The notes under the pieces: generated by a model
Databases searched by the model: none
The model's input: the letters and a program-made list of their open reading frames with translations, nothing else
What the model was told of the DNA's origin: nothing
Position numbers and translations under genes: made by a program
Shown here: positions 56,556 to 63,133 of the stretch, piece by piece
Layout: each line of letters opens with the position of its first letter
Numbering within the stretch: position 1 is the first letter of the stretch
From: Cognatundibacterium crateris
GTDB lineage: Bacteria > Pseudomonadota > Gammaproteobacteria > Burkholderiales > Burkholderiaceae_D
Assembly (NCBI RefSeq): GCF_010078235.1
Contig: NZ_JAABOS010000007.1
Location: 183,126-247,125, forward strand
DNA length: 64,000 nt
Reading direction: 5' to 3'

Positions 56556-57302
56556 TCATTTGCCCAAGTTCTTCTGCAACAAGGGCCGAGCCAAATCATC
56601 CAGCGCCATCATCTCCTGCAATATACGGCCAGTCCTTATATTCGCTGCATGGTAACGTTGAAATACCCGCCCATAGACGTCCATCAACACCAACTGATCA
56701 ACGTGATCTGCGGGTTTAGGGGACTTCAGGCTGGGATCAAAAGCACGAAAACGTGTCAACACCTTATTGACCACATCTTCCCCACCTGTAAGCCAGACCC
56801 ATCCAGGTTTATCTGCCTGCATCGCCTTAGCATAGGCTTGCATTTGAGGTACCTGATCAAATTCTGGGTTCACGGTAATGGACACTATCCGCAATTTTTT
56901 TCGATAAGCCGAAGGAATTTCCTTTTGCATCTGAAGCAGGTCTATCGTATCAGCAGGACATACTGAAGAACACGCTGTGTACATAAAATGTAGCAAGACC
57001 GTCTCGCCACGCAGGCTTTCCGGCTTAAACTCCTTACCTTCCCGGTCAGTCAATACAAAAGGTTCCATTGCGTGCAGAGTGGGATCATCGACTGCCGGAG
57101 GCTGCAAAGCCATGTCGATGCTGGCAGCGGCCGATGCACGCACTTCCCTGTCAACTCCGAATAACATGCTGCCTATCCCAGACGAGAGTGTGACCAATTT
57201 AAATATCACGCCAAGTATCACCACTGCCAATACCGTCAAGCCTATCCTTACCGGGCGTGACCAAGCAGGCGTATTTGCCCGGTCATTTAAAAAACTAAAC
57301 AT
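56556..57302 (-). CDS. SCO1/SenC family copper chaperone
   Basis: A 248-residue protein with one N-terminal membrane anchor (about 20-38) and a thioredoxin-like domain outside the membrane. The copper-binding triad is complete: C111 and C115 (YTACSSVCPAD, CxxxC) and H200 (ADHVDQLVLMD). SCO1-type proteins carry copper to cytochrome oxidase CuA or other periplasmic copper enzymes. Here the gene directly follows the copper radical oxidase fusion and no cytochrome oxidase genes are near, so the fusion is the likely client. GGAG lies 11 bases before the ATG. A strong terminator separates the two genes. Confidence 0.88.
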   Translation of the reverse strand: MFSFLNDRANTPAWSRPVRIGLTVLAVVILGVIFKLVTLSSGIGSMLFGVDREVRASAAASIDMALQPPAVDDPTLHAMEPFVLTDREGKEFKPESLRGETVLLHFMYTACSSVCPADTIDLLQMQKEIPSAYRKKLRIVSITVNPEFDQVPQMQAYAKAMQADKPGWVWLTGGEDVVNKVLTRFRAFDPSLKSPKPADHVDQLVLMDVYGRVFQRYHAANIRTGRILQEMMALDDLARPLLQKNLGK

Positions 57303-57370: not shown

Positions 57371-60300
57371 TTACTGAACAACGAAAATTTGTTGTACCGG
57401 GCGGTTATAACTATCCGCCGTGAATAAGCCGACCGCATAACTACCGGGCGCTAAACCAGTTGTATTGATTGTGAGCTGCCCCGTACCATTCGTAACATAT
57501 TGCCAGTTAGCAGTGCCTGTGACAGGGTAGTTCGCATTAGCGGAAAAGACACCCATCCAGTTCGTCATATTGACCTGATTGTTTGGAATGGTGTAATTCA
57601 CCTTCAACGGCGTCCCTGCTTTCACCGTAGTGACTGGCAGACTGAGACTCCAGACCGCTGTTGGCAAAGAGTTCTGCGATGCAGCTGGAACAGTCACACC
57701 TATCACACCCGTGTTCAGCGCTCCGGGAACGGTGGTGTTCAGGTTCGCGTCCGCAAACAGATTGTTTGTTGGCAGCATCACCCATGGCGTCGCCGTTCCC
57801 GGCTTTTGCAATTGCCACAACAAACTGACCCGTCCATAACCCGCTGCGTTGTAATACTCCAGTTTAATGTCATACACCGTACCTGCAGTAAAACTGATAG
57901 GTGTCGCCGTCTGGTTGAAGGTGGTGCCGTGATACGTCCAGTTATTGATAACCTGATTTCCATTCACCCACAAACGGACGCCGTCATCAGAATAAGTACC
58001 CAGCAGGTAGTTCCCAGATACTTCAGGGCGGAATTTGCCGCTGTAACGCACCGAGAAAGTATATGCAGGCATACCACCCACACCACCATTTGGAAACTCA
58101 CGGTCTACATTCTCAATACGCGTCACACTAGGGTTTCCAGTCAGCGTCATATTCGGAAAATAGTCAGCACGTAAGCCAGCGCCAGACAGATTGCTGACAC
58201 CCGGTGTGTAGTTTTCCGGATAAAGCTGGCTCAGCGGAACCGTGGTGAAGGCTGAATTTTCAGGTGTCTGCCATTTCAGGATCATGGCACTCGCATTACC
58301 CGCGTTGTACGACTCCACCATGACAGGATAGAGCTCTCCTTTCGTCAGATAGACACCGGCGGAAGTATCGGTCGTCAAAGCGCGGTTACTCCAATTCTCC
58401 AGTATGACCTGATTGGCCAAAGTGACACGTGTGCCATCGGCTGCTACGGTAGAGAAACGATAGCGCCCTGTCGTGCTTGCCTGCAGATAGCCATTCCAGC
58501 GTACCGAGTAGTTGTTCACACCAACACTCAGGCTAGGATACAGCGTACCCCAACTGAAGTTCAGCGCATCATTACGAACCATCATCGGCGTACCGGCGAA
58601 TGCCTGAGTATTCGCAAAGTAGGATCCGGTCAATCCTATGCCCGTGCCAATTACAGGATTAGTTGTATCTGTCAATGGTGCAGGCAGCACTCCCAGACCT
58701 GCCGGATCACTCCAGAGTTGAGTAACAGGAACAGGAACAAAGCTGGTGTCTTCTGGCGTTTTCCAAAACAGCTTCGCCATAGAACCAAGCTGCCCATTGA
58801 AATACTCTATCGTGATCGGATAACTTTGTCCCGCCACCATGGTAATGCTGACATCGTTATTCTGCGGCCAGTGATATCCCCAATTGTTAATGATCAAAGC
58901 CTTAGTATTACCAAAGTACACGCGAATTCCATCATCTGACCATGTGCGTAAAGTAAAGGTACCGGAGACAGGCGCGATAATGCTACCGGTCCAACGCACA
59001 CTAAAGTAGTCATGCGGCACACCGGGAGCAGGAGCAACAGCAGTAGATGGGTTCAGGTCGGTACGTCCCCAATCAAAATTAACCGCTTCGATACGACTGA
59101 AACGTACAGGGCCAGTCAAATAGTTGGCGTCGCCCGTTGAGTAGTAATTTCCGAGCAAACCATTGGTGGCTTCTGTGCCGCCAATCTGACGAACATAGGC
59201 TGCCAGCAAAGGGACATCCGAAGGATTAAATTTTACATTTTTAGTGTGTGCGAGAATCGCGGCCTCAATCGTCGGCGCAGAACCATCGTGCAGATAAGGC
59301 GCATTTTGCCAGGCATCGCGCAAGACAGGCGTATCAATGCCAGTCAAAGGTCCATTCAGACGCTTTCCTGCCGCAGCGTTAAGTGTGCCAACATCATGCA
59401 GCACCCCGGAAGCACTGTCTGTGAAATTACCACCAGAGTGACAAGACGCACACGATTGACGGAACAGATTACGGCCAGCCACACCATCGGCGGTGAGCTT
59501 GCCGTCCGCACCACGCCATGGGCTAGGAGCAAATTTCCCCAGAGACTGTAAATAGGCCGCCAGCGCATCCAGGTCAGGACTGAGACCAGCTTTGGAGTCT
59601 CCCAAAGGCTGACTGCGGGTACCCGTATTGAATTGCGCATCGCTCAACAAACCTTTGCCGCCAGCGAAACTGCGTATCTGCCCCTCGAAGTCTTGCACCT
59701 CATCAAAATTACCCGACCAGTGCATACGACCATTACCGTTACCAGCTCTGCCGTTCAGGGCTATGGTTTTCCGCAGACCTTCACCCAGTGAGCTGAAGTC
59801 CCAGGTACGTCCATCGCTTCCACCCTCGCTATGGCAGGTTGCACAACTCATGTAAGCCCCTTTTGCCAGACGCTGGTCTTTCGCGTCATGGAAAAGCTGC
59901 TTGCCCAACAATACCTGTGCAGACAAGGCTTCAGTAAGGATAGTTTTCACAGTTGCAGTAACAGTGATGCCGAAAACACCGTTCTTCGTTAATGGTGTGA
60001 GATCAATCACGCTGATCGTCCGGTCCATATAGTTTTGTACGAACAGTTTATTGCCATCGGGTGAAAGTGCCAACGACTGCGGCGCCAATCCTACGACGAT
60101 GCGCTGCAATTCCAGCCCGGTATAGGCATTGACCACAACAACTTCACGACTACTTTCTAATGCGGCAAACAGATAGGCGCCACTTGGATGATAAACATCA
60201 GCTGTCGCAAGACCGCTGAATGCGTGATCAACCCGCGCTGCAAGGTTTTCCTGTAACAGCCCCAGATCAATTTTTGATGATGTGGCTCTGACCGTAGATG

Positions 60301-63133
60301 CAAAATCCAGTGCTTTACCATCACGCAAACCGCCGCGCTCAAGATTATCTTTCTTTGAAGGTAACCAGGCTGTTTTGCCATCAGGACTAATTGCTGCTGC
60401 GCCCAGATAATTCGGTACGCCACGTCCATCTCCATCTGCATTGGACGTATCGCTGCGCAACAGCTCTATTGTTTTCATCACAGACATGGCAGAAGTATCA
60501 AGAACAACTACCTCACCACCTGTTTTAGTGACATCAACCTGAAGAGTTCCTTCACCTGGCAATGCTGGTGTGACGAAACGCGAAACTAATAACTGTTTAC
60601 TGTCTCCTGTTATGGCGATATGGCGTGGACTGTTACCGATGAATTGATTCGCGACTACAGCCTGGCTTGTAGCATTGTATTTAAGAACTTGTCCGGTTGC
60701 CTCCAGTGCCACATAGAACGCAGCCCCATCCGGCGAGAACACAATTCCATGCGGTTGCGAAGCAAACGGCAACGACAAGCTGCTGCTGACGACCAAGGTC
60801 GCAGGATTGATCACACTGATCGTAGCTGCGTCTTTGTTTGTCACATAGATGCGGCCATCGGCACTTCGGGCCAAAGCCCTTGGATTTGCGCCTACCGGAA
60901 TTTCTTTAATCAGTTTATTAGTGATCGGGTCTATTACAGTGACAGAGTTGTTATCCGGATTGACTGTCCAGACCCGGTAAGCCTTGTTCGCCTGAGGCTC
61001 AATTATCGTTGCCATACTCGACACAGGTGCACTGGCGGTAGCGACGGAGGATACGGTCTGAATAAATGTGGTTCTGACTTCAATACCAGCCACGCCCTTC
61101 ATCGTCAGCGTCACCAGATACACTCCCGGTGCCGCATAAACATGCGTGACAGGGGTGTTGGGACCCATCAAGCTAGGCGCGCTACCATCCCCAAAATCCC
61201 AGCTCACCTGAGCACTGGCATCGTTAATGGTTGCCGTGTAGCTGACAGATCCGCCAGCCTGAATAATCGGTGCAGAAATAGTCGCCGTCAGCTTTGGCAA
61301 ATAGGGTGTAACCGGTGTAGGCGGCGCCTTGACGTTAGCGCCAATACTGACAATAACTGCTTTGGAAGGCACACCATTCGCATCAACTGTATAAAGCTGA
61401 TAATAGCCTGGAGGCGCATTATTCGCATCAGGAACAGTCGCAGTTAATATGCTACCGTCTTGAGTAAAAGTGAGAGGTACATAACGTTGGCCTTGATGGA
61501 AACCATGTGTTGCCACGCCCATTCCAAGCAAAGCCATTTGCTTAATCGGAGCCGCAGCAGCCATACTGACCTGCACTTGCGCACCGTTCGCATAGGAAAG
61601 ACCAGTAATCCCGCTCATGACTGGACGTGCAGCCCACTGTACTACGCCGTTGACCTTGGTGAACAGATAAGTTGGATAAAAAATTTCTGAATTATTATTA
61701 AACACCGGGCCAGGTGTGCCGCTGCCTGCCGTCATCACAGTACCATTCGTCAATAAGGCAGCGGTATTGTGATAAAGCCTCGCTCTGACTGAGGGAGCCA
61801 TTACCTTCCAGGACTTATCATCGGGATTCCAAATTTCCGGATTGTAGACTGCGGTACCCAGATTAATTCCTTGCCCTGTTCCACCATGCACAAAAACCTT
61901 CCCATCCGGTAAAACCGTCGCATTCAGCATGCGGCGCGCATAACGCATAGGAGGTAACTCAGTTAACACTGGAGCGCCATTGCTGATATCAATGATCGTT
62001 GCCTTATTGCTGGCGTTATATCCGTCCAACACAAAATAGCCATTTCCGCCGACCTTTAAAATTTTTCCCGGCGCATACATCACCGCGGTACCTGGCGTAC
62101 CGACATTCGGCGTCGTCGTGTTATCAGCAGCGGTTTTGAATGGGCCTGCAGAAGTAATTCCACCCTGCCCTTTATTCGCATTGGGATCGAGGTACCACAT
62201 TTGTTCAGAGGACACGCCAAATACCAAACCGTTAGGTGCTACCCATGCCCGTGGATAAGCGCTACGCAAAAAATCCGGTCCAAACGCAAGGCGACTGTTT
62301 GCCCCCAGCAGACTACGCCAGGTGCCCGTACCAGGAACGGCAGGATTGGGCTCATAAATTTCCGGCGTCATGGATGACAAGCCAGCATTGATCGCACCCG
62401 CCGGATCGCCATATTGTCCTTCTGTATTCGGCACCATACCACCGACAGACAATTGCCGGCCGTCAGGCAAGGCGAGCATGGTCGAATACCAACGCTGGAA
62501 CGCATAGGACGAAGTTTGCTTGACGCGCTTATTACTCGCAGGGTCAAAAATGATGGTCGCTTTAGCGGTTGCACCAAACGCACCTTCACCTTGTAACAAG
62601 CGACCATCTGGCATTAAGGAGCCTGTGCCGCAAAAACTGTCCGGGTTAACTGTGTCATCCCACACTGTATGTGCGTTCAAATCTGTTCCAACTGAGGGGT
62701 CCCATAAATCGAAAGTCTGGGCGGACAAAGAATCACCACGCGCTCCCCACCCAAGATATTTGCCGTTTGGTAGCTGAGCCAGATGAATTGCATTAATCGC
62801 CATCGGTAAGACAGGAGAAAACATGCCTTGCGTGTCAGCGTTTGCGGCTGGTGTTACGCCTGTCAAGGGATCAGGCTGTTGTGGAATCGTGACCCAATTG
62901 CTGGTCGCTGCGGCATTTACAACTTGATACGTGCCAACTGCAGCAAAACGTTCGGTCATTTTATCTACCGGCGCATCGGTACTTTTGCTACCGCCACTAC
63001 AAGCAGCGATGAAAAATATAACGCCTGCAGTACTGACCGTAATCCGGAATCGCGTCTTCATGATTGCGTATACTGGGTCAGACAGAACAGGAGTTTTCCT
63101 GAGAGTAGTTTTTTTTCTGAAAGAGGCGATCAT
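57371..63133 (-). CDS. Giant lipoprotein: copper radical oxidase, PKD, YVTN propeller, di-haem cytochrome c, three PA14 domains
   Basis: A 1920-residue exported protein. Lipobox FIAAC has its cysteine at 45. Residues about 60-500 form a galactose-oxidase-type propeller with all copper radical oxidase residues: C168 (SFCG) and Y216 (RWYS) for the Cys-Tyr cross-link, Y454-H455 (RLYHN) and, in the early-set domain (about 505-600), H543 (ATHG). Then come a PKD domain (about 615-695), YVTN propeller (715-1065), and a di-haem peroxidase-like domain (1075-1320) with C1097-x2-C1100-H1101 and C1228-x2-C1231-H1232. PA14 domains are near 1324-1475, 1497-1640 and 1650-1793; the first and third keep the SDDG loop, the second has AADG. 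An Ig-like end follows. The start at 63133 has GGAG seven bases before; an internal ATG at 63061 would also keep the lipobox. Confidence 0.9.
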   Translation of the reverse strand: MIASFRKKTTLRKTPVLSDPVYAIMKTRFRITVSTAGVIFFIAACSGGSKSTDAPVDKMTERFAAVGTYQVVNAAATSNWVTIPQQPDPLTGVTPAANADTQGMFSPVLPMAINAIHLAQLPNGKYLGWGARGDSLSAQTFDLWDPSVGTDLNAHTVWDDTVNPDSFCGTGSLMPDGRLLQGEGAFGATAKATIIFDPASNKRVKQTSSYAFQRWYSTMLALPDGRQLSVGGMVPNTEGQYGDPAGAINAGLSSMTPEIYEPNPAVPGTGTWRSLLGANSRLAFGPDFLRSAYPRAWVAPNGLVFGVSSEQMWYLDPNANKGQGGITSAGPFKTAADNTTTPNVGTPGTAVMYAPGKILKVGGNGYFVLDGYNASNKATIIDISNGAPVLTELPPMRYARRMLNATVLPDGKVFVHGGTGQGINLGTAVYNPEIWNPDDKSWKVMAPSVRARLYHNTAALLTNGTVMTAGSGTPGPVFNNNSEIFYPTYLFTKVNGVVQWAARPVMSGITGLSYANGAQVQVSMAAAAPIKQMALLGMGVATHGFHQGQRYVPLTFTQDGSILTATVPDANNAPPGYYQLYTVDANGVPSKAVIVSIGANVKAPPTPVTPYLPKLTATISAPIIQAGGSVSYTATINDASAQVSWDFGDGSAPSLMGPNTPVTHVYAAPGVYLVTLTMKGVAGIEVRTTFIQTVSSVATASAPVSSMATIIEPQANKAYRVWTVNPDNNSVTVIDPITNKLIKEIPVGANPRALARSADGRIYVTNKDAATISVINPATLVVSSSLSLPFASQPHGIVFSPDGAAFYVALEATGQVLKYNATSQAVVANQFIGNSPRHIAITGDSKQLLVSRFVTPALPGEGTLQVDVTKTGGEVVVLDTSAMSVMKTIELLRSDTSNADGDGRGVPNYLGAAAISPDGKTAWLPSKKDNLERGGLRDGKALDFASTVRATSSKIDLGLLQENLAARVDHAFSGLATADVYHPSGAYLFAALESSREVVVVNAYTGLELQRIVVGLAPQSLALSPDGNKLFVQNYMDRTISVIDLTPLTKNGVFGITVTATVKTILTEALSAQVLLGKQLFHDAKDQRLAKGAYMSCATCHSEGGSDGRTWDFSSLGEGLRKTIALNGRAGNGNGRMHWSGNFDEVQDFEGQIRSFAGGKGLLSDAQFNTGTRSQPLGDSKAGLSPDLDALAAYLQSLGKFAPSPWRGADGKLTADGVAGRNLFRQSCASCHSGGNFTDSASGVLHDVGTLNAAAGKRLNGPLTGIDTPVLRDAWQNAPYLHDGSAPTIEAAILAHTKNVKFNPSDVPLLAAYVRQIGGTEATNGLLGNYYSTGDANYLTGPVRFSRIEAVNFDWGRTDLNPSTAVAPAPGVPHDYFSVRWTGSIIAPVSGTFTLRTWSDDGIRVYFGNTKALIINNWGYHWPQNNDVSITMVAGQSYPITIEYFNGQLGSMAKLFWKTPEDTSFVPVPVTQLWSDPAGLGVLPAPLTDTTNPVIGTGIGLTGSYFANTQAFAGTPMMVRNDALNFSWGTLYPSLSVGVNNYSVRWNGYLQASTTGRYRFSTVAADGTRVTLANQVILENWSNRALTTDTSAGVYLTKGELYPVMVESYNAGNASAMILKWQTPENSAFTTVPLSQLYPENYTPGVSNLSGAGLRADYFPNMTLTGNPSVTRIENVDREFPNGGVGGMPAYTFSVRYSGKFRPEVSGNYLLGTYSDDGVRLWVNGNQVINNWTYHGTTFNQTATPISFTAGTVYDIKLEYYNAAGYGRVSLLWQLQKPGTATPWVMLPTNNLFADANLNTTVPGALNTGVIGVTVPAASQNSLPTAVWSLSLPVTTVKAGTPLKVNYTIPNNQVNMTNWMGVFSANANYPVTGTANWQYVTNGTGQLTINTTGLAPGSYAVGLFTADSYNRPVQQIFVVQ

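Follow-up and report, generated by a model that had tools for sequence, protein, structure and literature searches.

How copper radical oxidases are matured in vivo and kept in their radical state is partly understood, and the answers so far involve separate haem peroxidases in Streptomyces and in plant-pathogenic fungi. The 64,000-nucleotide stretch of Cognatundibacterium crateris DNA analysed here, which we call the window, contains a gene predicted to encode such an oxidase and a di-haem c-type domain on a single chain. This raises the question of what the haem module does for the oxidase to which it is tethered. A first-pass annotation of the gene had proposed that a galactose-oxidase-type domain releases hydrogen peroxide and that a peroxidase-like domain on the same surface lipoprotein could either remove this peroxide or pass electrons into the respiratory chain. 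We confirmed the observation behind this proposal and found that the interpretation is partly supported.

The gene (Table 1) starts with ATG and has no internal stop codons, and its coordinates, strand and length of 1920 amino acids are exactly as first annotated. Judging from the sequence, translation may start at Met1 or at Met25, with the signal peptide proper starting at Met25. The residues around C45, which we take to be a lipobox by the general rule for such sites, agree with the claim that the protein is a lipoprotein. Only six cysteines are found in the whole chain: C45, C168 and the four that belong to the two CxxCH sites, which are present at 1097 and 1228 as claimed. Pfam matches above the cut-offs (in brackets) uphold the galactose-oxidase-type, di-haem c-type, PKD and PA14 identities, with 43.7 bits for Glyoxal_oxid_N (37.5), 66 for GO-like_E_set (25), 42 for PKD (23.5), 39.4 for CCP_MauG (25.6), 25.9 for Cytochrom_C (21.3) and 208.8 for PA14 in three stretches (24). 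With these identities, a predicted peroxide-making module and a haem module do lie on one chain.

The oxidase domain has the fold of the AA5 family, a Kelch-type seven-bladed propeller followed by a C-terminal early-set domain, with PF07250 and PF09118 above cut-off. Residues 102-597 are matched by the bacterial galactose oxidase 9g8h (E 5.1e-36). A fold search with an AlphaFold2 model of residues 60-600 (predicted local distance difference test score, pLDDT, 89.6; predicted template modelling score, pTM, 0.91) returned galactose oxidases at the top (9g43, Z 49.7, root-mean-square deviation (rmsd) 1.9 over 452 residues; 1gof, Z 48.2) and GlxA (4unm) with Z 40.8. The five residues named by the first-pass annotation as a complete active-site set, C168, Y216, Y454, H455 and H543, are all where it placed them. 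C168 and Y216 align with Cys and Tyr in 9g8h; in both 9g8h and 2eid, Y454 and H455 fall on a Tyr-His pair and H543 falls on a His. We take these residues to be the known copper-site ligands. By sequence, the window protein has the Cys-Tyr pair, second Tyr and two His of AA5 enzymes. Its fold and these five residues are common to the galactose oxidases of Pseudoarthrobacter siccitolerans (9g43, 9g8h) and Fusarium (1gof). Unlike the window protein, those enzymes are 617-639 residues long with no haem domain; the window copy has an RWY motif and no Trp at the aligned column of galactose oxidase Trp290, in the GGSW loop.

The propeller and di-haem part of the chain, which we call the core, was modelled with AlphaFold2 as residues 616-1330 (pLDDT 88.6, pTM 0.91). 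The best structural match of the propeller is hydrazine synthase beta (Z 37.6, rmsd 2.0, 305 residues). By sequence, the di-haem domain is nearest to hydrazine synthase gamma (best) and to bacterial di-haem peroxidases; this kinship rests on sequence because propellers filled the fold-search lists of the propeller-haem model. Hydrazine synthase beta/gamma (5c2v) has the same pairing of a beta-propeller with a di-haem domain but on separate chains, and the NCBIfam model for a hydrazine synthase beta-gamma fusion scored 68.8 bits, below its cut-off of 1250. Two haem sites and a PF03150 match above cut-off place the domain in the di-haem superfamily of cytochrome c peroxidase (CCP) and MauG. Like MauG and MbnH, it belongs to the CCP_MauG family and has two CxxCH sites.

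The host is an Undibacterium close to U. curvum, with 88% identity over the core. Its genome encodes a second fused protein of 1937 amino acids (L003:4209-10022(-)) with a similar core, F5/8C domains and a galactose-oxidase-type site. The two copies are about 28% identical in the oxidase part and about 48% in the propeller-haem part. This second copy, the propeller of the window protein and the SCO gene next to it had all been missed by the first-pass annotation. The host genome encodes ResB, which belongs to system II of cytochrome c biogenesis, so covalent attachment of c-type haem is plausible. CcmF_C-type cytochrome maturation was considered and rejected, as the genome has no match to the CcmF_C family and has ResB instead.

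A genome search for the same architecture had been suggested as a check. We scanned a species collection with a core profile built from fused proteins, obtained 241 relatives and kept the best 80. A set of 83 cores was drawn from these, the window protein and the second host copy; a further row for the window itself (L004) and L035-L039, duplicates of L043, L061, L089, L099 and L071, were dropped before counting. The oxidase is present on 76 of the 83 cores, the window's included (72 full, 4 cut or split). Six of the other seven lie at contig ends, and one, from Lautropia (L082), is apparently alone. The set spans Betaproteobacteria, Gammaproteobacteria, Verrucomicrobiota and Myxococcota and leans to fusions owing to the origin of the profile in such proteins. 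Together with the E value of the 9g8h match, recurrence in 76 collected proteins shows that the architecture is no chance match. PKD, PF07250, PF09118 and PF03150 were found in all 21 fused proteins scanned (of 72), with PA14 in 12 and F5/8C in 6. Within the window's family (245 genomes) the fusion occurs in at least five genomes and seven proteins.

Conservation extends to both active sites. Among the 72 proteins whose oxidase domain is full, 71, including the window protein, have the whole five-residue oxidase set. Cys, Cys and His are present at both haem sites in 83/83 cores; a plain motif search gives one CxxCH in the core of L058 and of L075, where the aligned positions are still Cys, Cys and His. 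H1138 and W1139 are likewise invariant in all 83. The alignment to 1eb7 shows no His at the place of CCP His71, which we take as the reference position for the first haem, and H1138 could ligate that haem. Across the family the gap between propeller and haem domain is 1-14 residues, as against 119-1074 residues for the linker between oxidase and propeller. Based on this short gap and variable linker, we picture the core as a stiff haem-bearing unit that is loosely tethered; such an arrangement suits flexible docking, or an intermediate that diffuses, better than fixed wiring.

A tree of the oxidase domains has four groups: I, with the window protein, II, III, and IV, with the second host copy. 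In groups I-III there is no Trp at the Trp290 column in 47/47 proteins (36 of them have an alignment gap there), and the radical Tyr is preceded by Trp (one Tyr in group II). In group IV, the second host copy included, Trp occupies the Trp290 column in 25/25, and Gly or Ala precedes the radical Tyr. The core tree recovered group II and did not reject groups I, III and IV as clades (approximately unbiased test, p-AU 0.70, 0.83 and 0.74). Distances in the oxidase and core trees are correlated (Mantel r 0.54, with 0/999 permutations as high; r 0.70-0.90 within groups). Swapping of domains between oxidases and cores was considered because a first quick core tree mixed groups I and IV. Constraining I, III or IV raised the likelihood over the quick search without rejection, and we therefore do not claim swapping.

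Copper-handling genes are frequent neighbors of the fusion. In the window, a SCO1/SenC gene starts 68 nucleotides downstream on the same strand, and the two genes may form an operon. Its product scored 87.3 bits in Pfam (cut-off 22.8) and has the CxxxC motif and His of this family. Downstream of the second host copy are a small cytochrome c gene and then a SCO gene. Counting SCO genes on the same strand within 1.2 kb, a rule that omits an opposite-strand SCO (L057) and one overlapping the called start (L063), we found SCO adjoining 32 of the 76 oxidase-haem genes. Outside Verrucomicrobia, SCO is present in 25/37 loci with flanks of 1.5 kb on both sides. In Verrucomicrobia, 8/20 loci instead have an MbnP-MbnH gene immediately upstream; a sequence search identified all eight, two of which were also scanned with Pfam. 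MbnP is known from later work as a copper-binding protein. According to a 2013 paper, no data then tied close MbnP homologues to copper (PMC3621798). MbnP and its MauG-like partner MbnH are encoded there as one gene, for example L103:3262-5097 and L086:2387-4165. Ten loci with oxidase-free cores (L123, L124, L134-L141) had no SCO match; in the loci searched, every SCO or MbnP gene lay either at an oxidase-bearing locus or beside a core truncated ahead of the oxidase place.

Table 1. Predicted features of the oxidase-haem gene and its SCO neighbor, with positions in the window.
Feature	Position	Strand	Basis
Coding sequence, multidomain lipoprotein, 1920 amino acids: copper radical oxidase - PKD - propeller - di-haem - 3 PA14	57371..63133	-	Open frame; Pfam
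Signal peptide + lipobox, residues 25-45 (FIAAC, then S)	62999..63061	-	Sequence reading
Copper radical oxidase domain, residues 101-600 (Kelch propeller + early-set domain)	61334..62833	-	Pfam, sequence match, model, fold search, alignment
C168, predicted Cys of Cys-Tyr cross-link	62630..62632	-	Residue check, conservation, alignment
Y216, predicted cross-linked radical tyrosine, RWY motif	62486..62488	-	Residue check, conservation, alignment
Y454-H455, predicted copper ligands	61769..61774	-	Residue check, conservation, alignment
H543, predicted copper ligand	61505..61507	-	Residue check, conservation, alignment
PKD domain, residues 616-691	61061..61288	-	Pfam
YVTN/YncE-type beta-propeller, residues ~693-1060, seven-bladed by its matches	59954..61057	-	Pfam, NCBIfam, model, fold search
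Di-haem CCP/MauG-type domain, residues 1062-1318	59180..59950	-	Pfam, sequence alignment
Haem site 1, CATCH, residues 1097-1101	59831..59845	-	Residue check, conservation
Haem site 2, CASCH, residues 1228-1232	59438..59452	-	Residue check, conservation
H1296, predicted distal ligand of second haem	59246..59248	-	Alignment; conservation
Three PA14 domains, residues ~1325-1795	57749..59161	-	Pfam; RsgI3 (6qe7) match over 1496-1795
C-terminal domain, residues 1800-1920	57374..57736	-	Like stretches in other large family proteins (G177, G067, G228, G234)
SCO1/SenC copper chaperone, CSSVC at 111 + His200	56556..57302	-	Pfam; sequence reading

The C-terminal 120 residues look like a separate mobile domain, since they match stretches in other large family proteins. 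On the circular plasmid CP099607 the three-gene order is annotated as 'discoidin domain-containing protein', 'hypothetical protein' and 'SCO family protein'. Such annotation can mask the family, since one complete member is labelled as a discoidin domain-containing protein.

Core and oxidase each also occur apart, so that the fusion forms a single large branch of each. In 399 Burkholderiales genomes sampled, with at most three candidates scored per genome so that counts are lower bounds, we found at least 16 core proteins, spread over 12 genomes: 5 have an oxidase, 1 is cut by a contig end and 10 lack the oxidase. These ten rule out the idea that the core is exclusive to the oxidase. Four of them are short, at 733-854 amino acids, and two of the six longer ones, scanned with Pfam, have LVIVD repeats on the N-terminal side. 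Short propeller and di-haem proteins without an oxidase (676-854 amino acids) include L135:7205-9769(-), L134, L138, L140 and L082:1518-3548. In L123:5809-10644(-) and L137:8303-12610(-) a PKD-propeller-di-haem core lies behind LVIVD repeats and an Ig-like domain. A plasmid of Anoxybacillus amylolyticus (Bacillota) encodes a distant propeller/di-haem protein (L143:2717-6815), preceded by a 686-amino-acid protein without a Pfam match. Of 15 loci examined with unfused oxidases, three have an adjoining separate gene with two CxxCH motifs (L040, L042 and L146, from family genomes G031, G024 and G023); two of these genes were scanned and both are above the CCP_MauG cut-off. The oxidase of L146 is split over two frames. 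Divergent unfused oxidases are found in L129:4751-8088 and L151:4710-8239, where the next gene, with overlapping ends, encodes a protein of 322 or 345 amino acids.

Two known systems resemble this locus; what we say of them comes from excerpts of the papers. In Streptomyces lividans, as in the window, a copper radical oxidase (GlxA) goes together with a haem partner (DtpA) and a Sco chaperone, but the three are separate proteins, and the haem partner is a DyP-type peroxidase with a single haem, whereas the window protein has a c-type di-haem domain (PMC4736821). GlxA maturation is perturbed without Sco or DtpA and restored by extra copper, and compound I of DtpA appears once GlxA has substrate (PMC4736821). 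According to the authors, DtpA may act by oxidising the copper bound to Sco and by removing H2O2; they also point out that in some Burkholderia Gox and sco genes occur together (PMC4736821). The second system is the tandem alcohol oxidase-peroxidase of Colletotrichum and Magnaporthe, in which a copper radical oxidase is again paired with a haem partner, here an activating peroxidase, but from two fungal genes and with a class II peroxidase (PMC9770985). For Colletotrichum, activation is described as a one-electron oxidation of the alcohol oxidase by the haem peroxidase, which is secreted with it and works in close contact (PMC9770985). The parts, and the partnership of oxidase, haem peroxidase and Sco as separate proteins, are thus already known. 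Within the literature listings and abstract openings searched, no copper radical oxidase fused to a di-haem c-type domain is named, in line with the first-pass remark that this combination was not known as a characterised enzyme. These searches turned up no description of the one-chain c-type version, of its spread or of its link to SCO or MbnP-MbnH, save for the Burkholderia remark.

Since the same parts are present, with oxidase and haem module fused and SCO beside them, we favor a peroxide-coupled haem partner. We consider it on balance probable that the window protein is a one-chain counterpart of GlxA, DtpA and Sco, whose haem module clears the H2O2 of the oxidase, keeps its radical site oxidised, or both. 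An outer-membrane or surface lipoprotein would oxidise an alcohol or aldehyde at a Cu(II)-tyrosyl radical site and release H2O2. The SCO protein would supply the copper, and such loading is likely. The tethered di-haem module would react with H2O2 made next door and clear it; it may also, or instead, carry out the one-electron oxidation that brings the oxidase into its radical-active form or holds it there. The PA14 domains, or F5/8C or lectin domains in relatives, would anchor the protein to a polysaccharide or surface.

Several results weigh against this account of a peroxide-coupled haem partner. The activities of the oxidase and of the peroxidase are both predicted. H1296 aligns with the Met of the peroxidases 1iqc, 3o5c, 1eb7 and 9qdt, which we take to be the distal ligand of the second haem, and His occupies this position in 80/83 cores. 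As read from the alignment, the second haem is probably bis-His and, with His replacing the Met of CCP, may differ from a classical CCP in not accepting electrons from cytochrome c. Thus, the peroxidase-like label given in the first-pass annotation holds for the CCP_MauG family match, fails for the distal Met, and is a lead only. The variable linker between oxidase and propeller means that no fixed contact is conserved, and L120 has Ala in place of the oxidase Cys. Ten of the 15 uncut Burkholderiales cores are without an oxidase, as are the Lautropia core and the Anoxybacillus protein, so the basic chemistry of the core needs no copper oxidase. Conversely, PF09118 was found in 10/398 Pseudomonadota genomes (11 genes), and only 3/11, in two genomes, are fused. 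Twelve of the 15 unfused oxidase loci have no two-CxxCH gene nearby; one of the twelve, L145, has a small cytochrome and SCO. When unfused oxidases were added to the tree, a few fell within groups I and IV (support 80-89), which may reflect loss or gain of the haem part in these places. By our rule there is no SCO gene at 44/76 loci (18 with short flanks), and 0/20 loci in Verrucomicrobia have one.

A more far-reaching reading is that the protein is a self-maturing, self-poising oxidase, in which a MauG-like module in cis uses the H2O2 of its own chain to install or restore the Cys-Tyr radical. We regard this as speculative and hold it with limited confidence. If true, it would to our knowledge be the first MauG-family enzyme acting on a copper-radical cofactor.

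We think it unlikely that the protein is instead a dehydrogenase, in which the di-haem domain would take electrons from the copper site or from H2O2 and pass them through a small cytochrome c to the respiratory chain. A family of small one-haem cytochromes (RGGPxSRYD ... MPRY) does adjoin 23 of the 76 oxidase-haem genes, with SCO also present in 23/23, and in several loci the cytochrome frame and the end of the oxidase-haem gene overlap. A bis-His second haem would suit an electron relay, and the nearest solved relatives of the propeller and di-haem domains are hydrazine synthase beta and gamma. However, no such cytochrome was found adjoining the window gene, the variable linker speaks against a fixed electron path from copper, and copper radical oxidases are known to use O2. 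The small cytochrome of the second host locus (L003:3733-4266(-)) and its relatives have no Pfam match in the two members scanned.

Less likely still is a di-haem domain that acts chiefly as a maturase in cis and, like MauG, would carry out a post-translational oxidation, either forming or renewing the Cys-Tyr radical cofactor or oxidising SCO-delivered copper. MauG, which acts on methylamine dehydrogenase, shares the CCP_MauG family with the window protein; in the latter the haem module is fused to the protein on which it might act. By profile coordinates (204-237 to 264-297), not residue-level alignment, H1296 falls at MauG position 294, and the window protein has His there in place of Tyr, which we take to be the distal ligand of MauG. 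The MbnP-MbnH neighbors at eight loci favor a maturase, whereas the oxidase-free cores argue against it. The literature excerpts likewise point both ways: DtpA is needed for GlxA maturation and is suggested to oxidise Sco-bound Cu(I) (PMC4736821), and a MauG-like partner has been suggested in the case of the copper protein MopE and its kynurenine (PMC3621798), but added copper alone rescues maturation in the dtpA mutant (PMC4736821).

Mere co-tethering of shuffled adhesion and enzyme domains on one surface protein, with the propeller and di-haem domains having a substrate of their own, would explain the standalone and LVIVD-type cores and the varied accessory domains (PA14 12/21, F5/8C 6/21) but is improbable given co-inheritance across four divergent oxidase groups, oxidase and di-haem as adjoining separate genes in three genomes, and SCO or MbnP confined, in the loci searched, to oxidase-bearing loci or cut cores.

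With a fused haem module, often beside a copper-handling gene, the question of how copper radical oxidases are matured and kept active becomes testable on one chain. The fusion could yield a self-contained oxidase for biocatalysis, and the self-maturing account, if true, would mean that copper radical oxidases can have a built-in on-switch.

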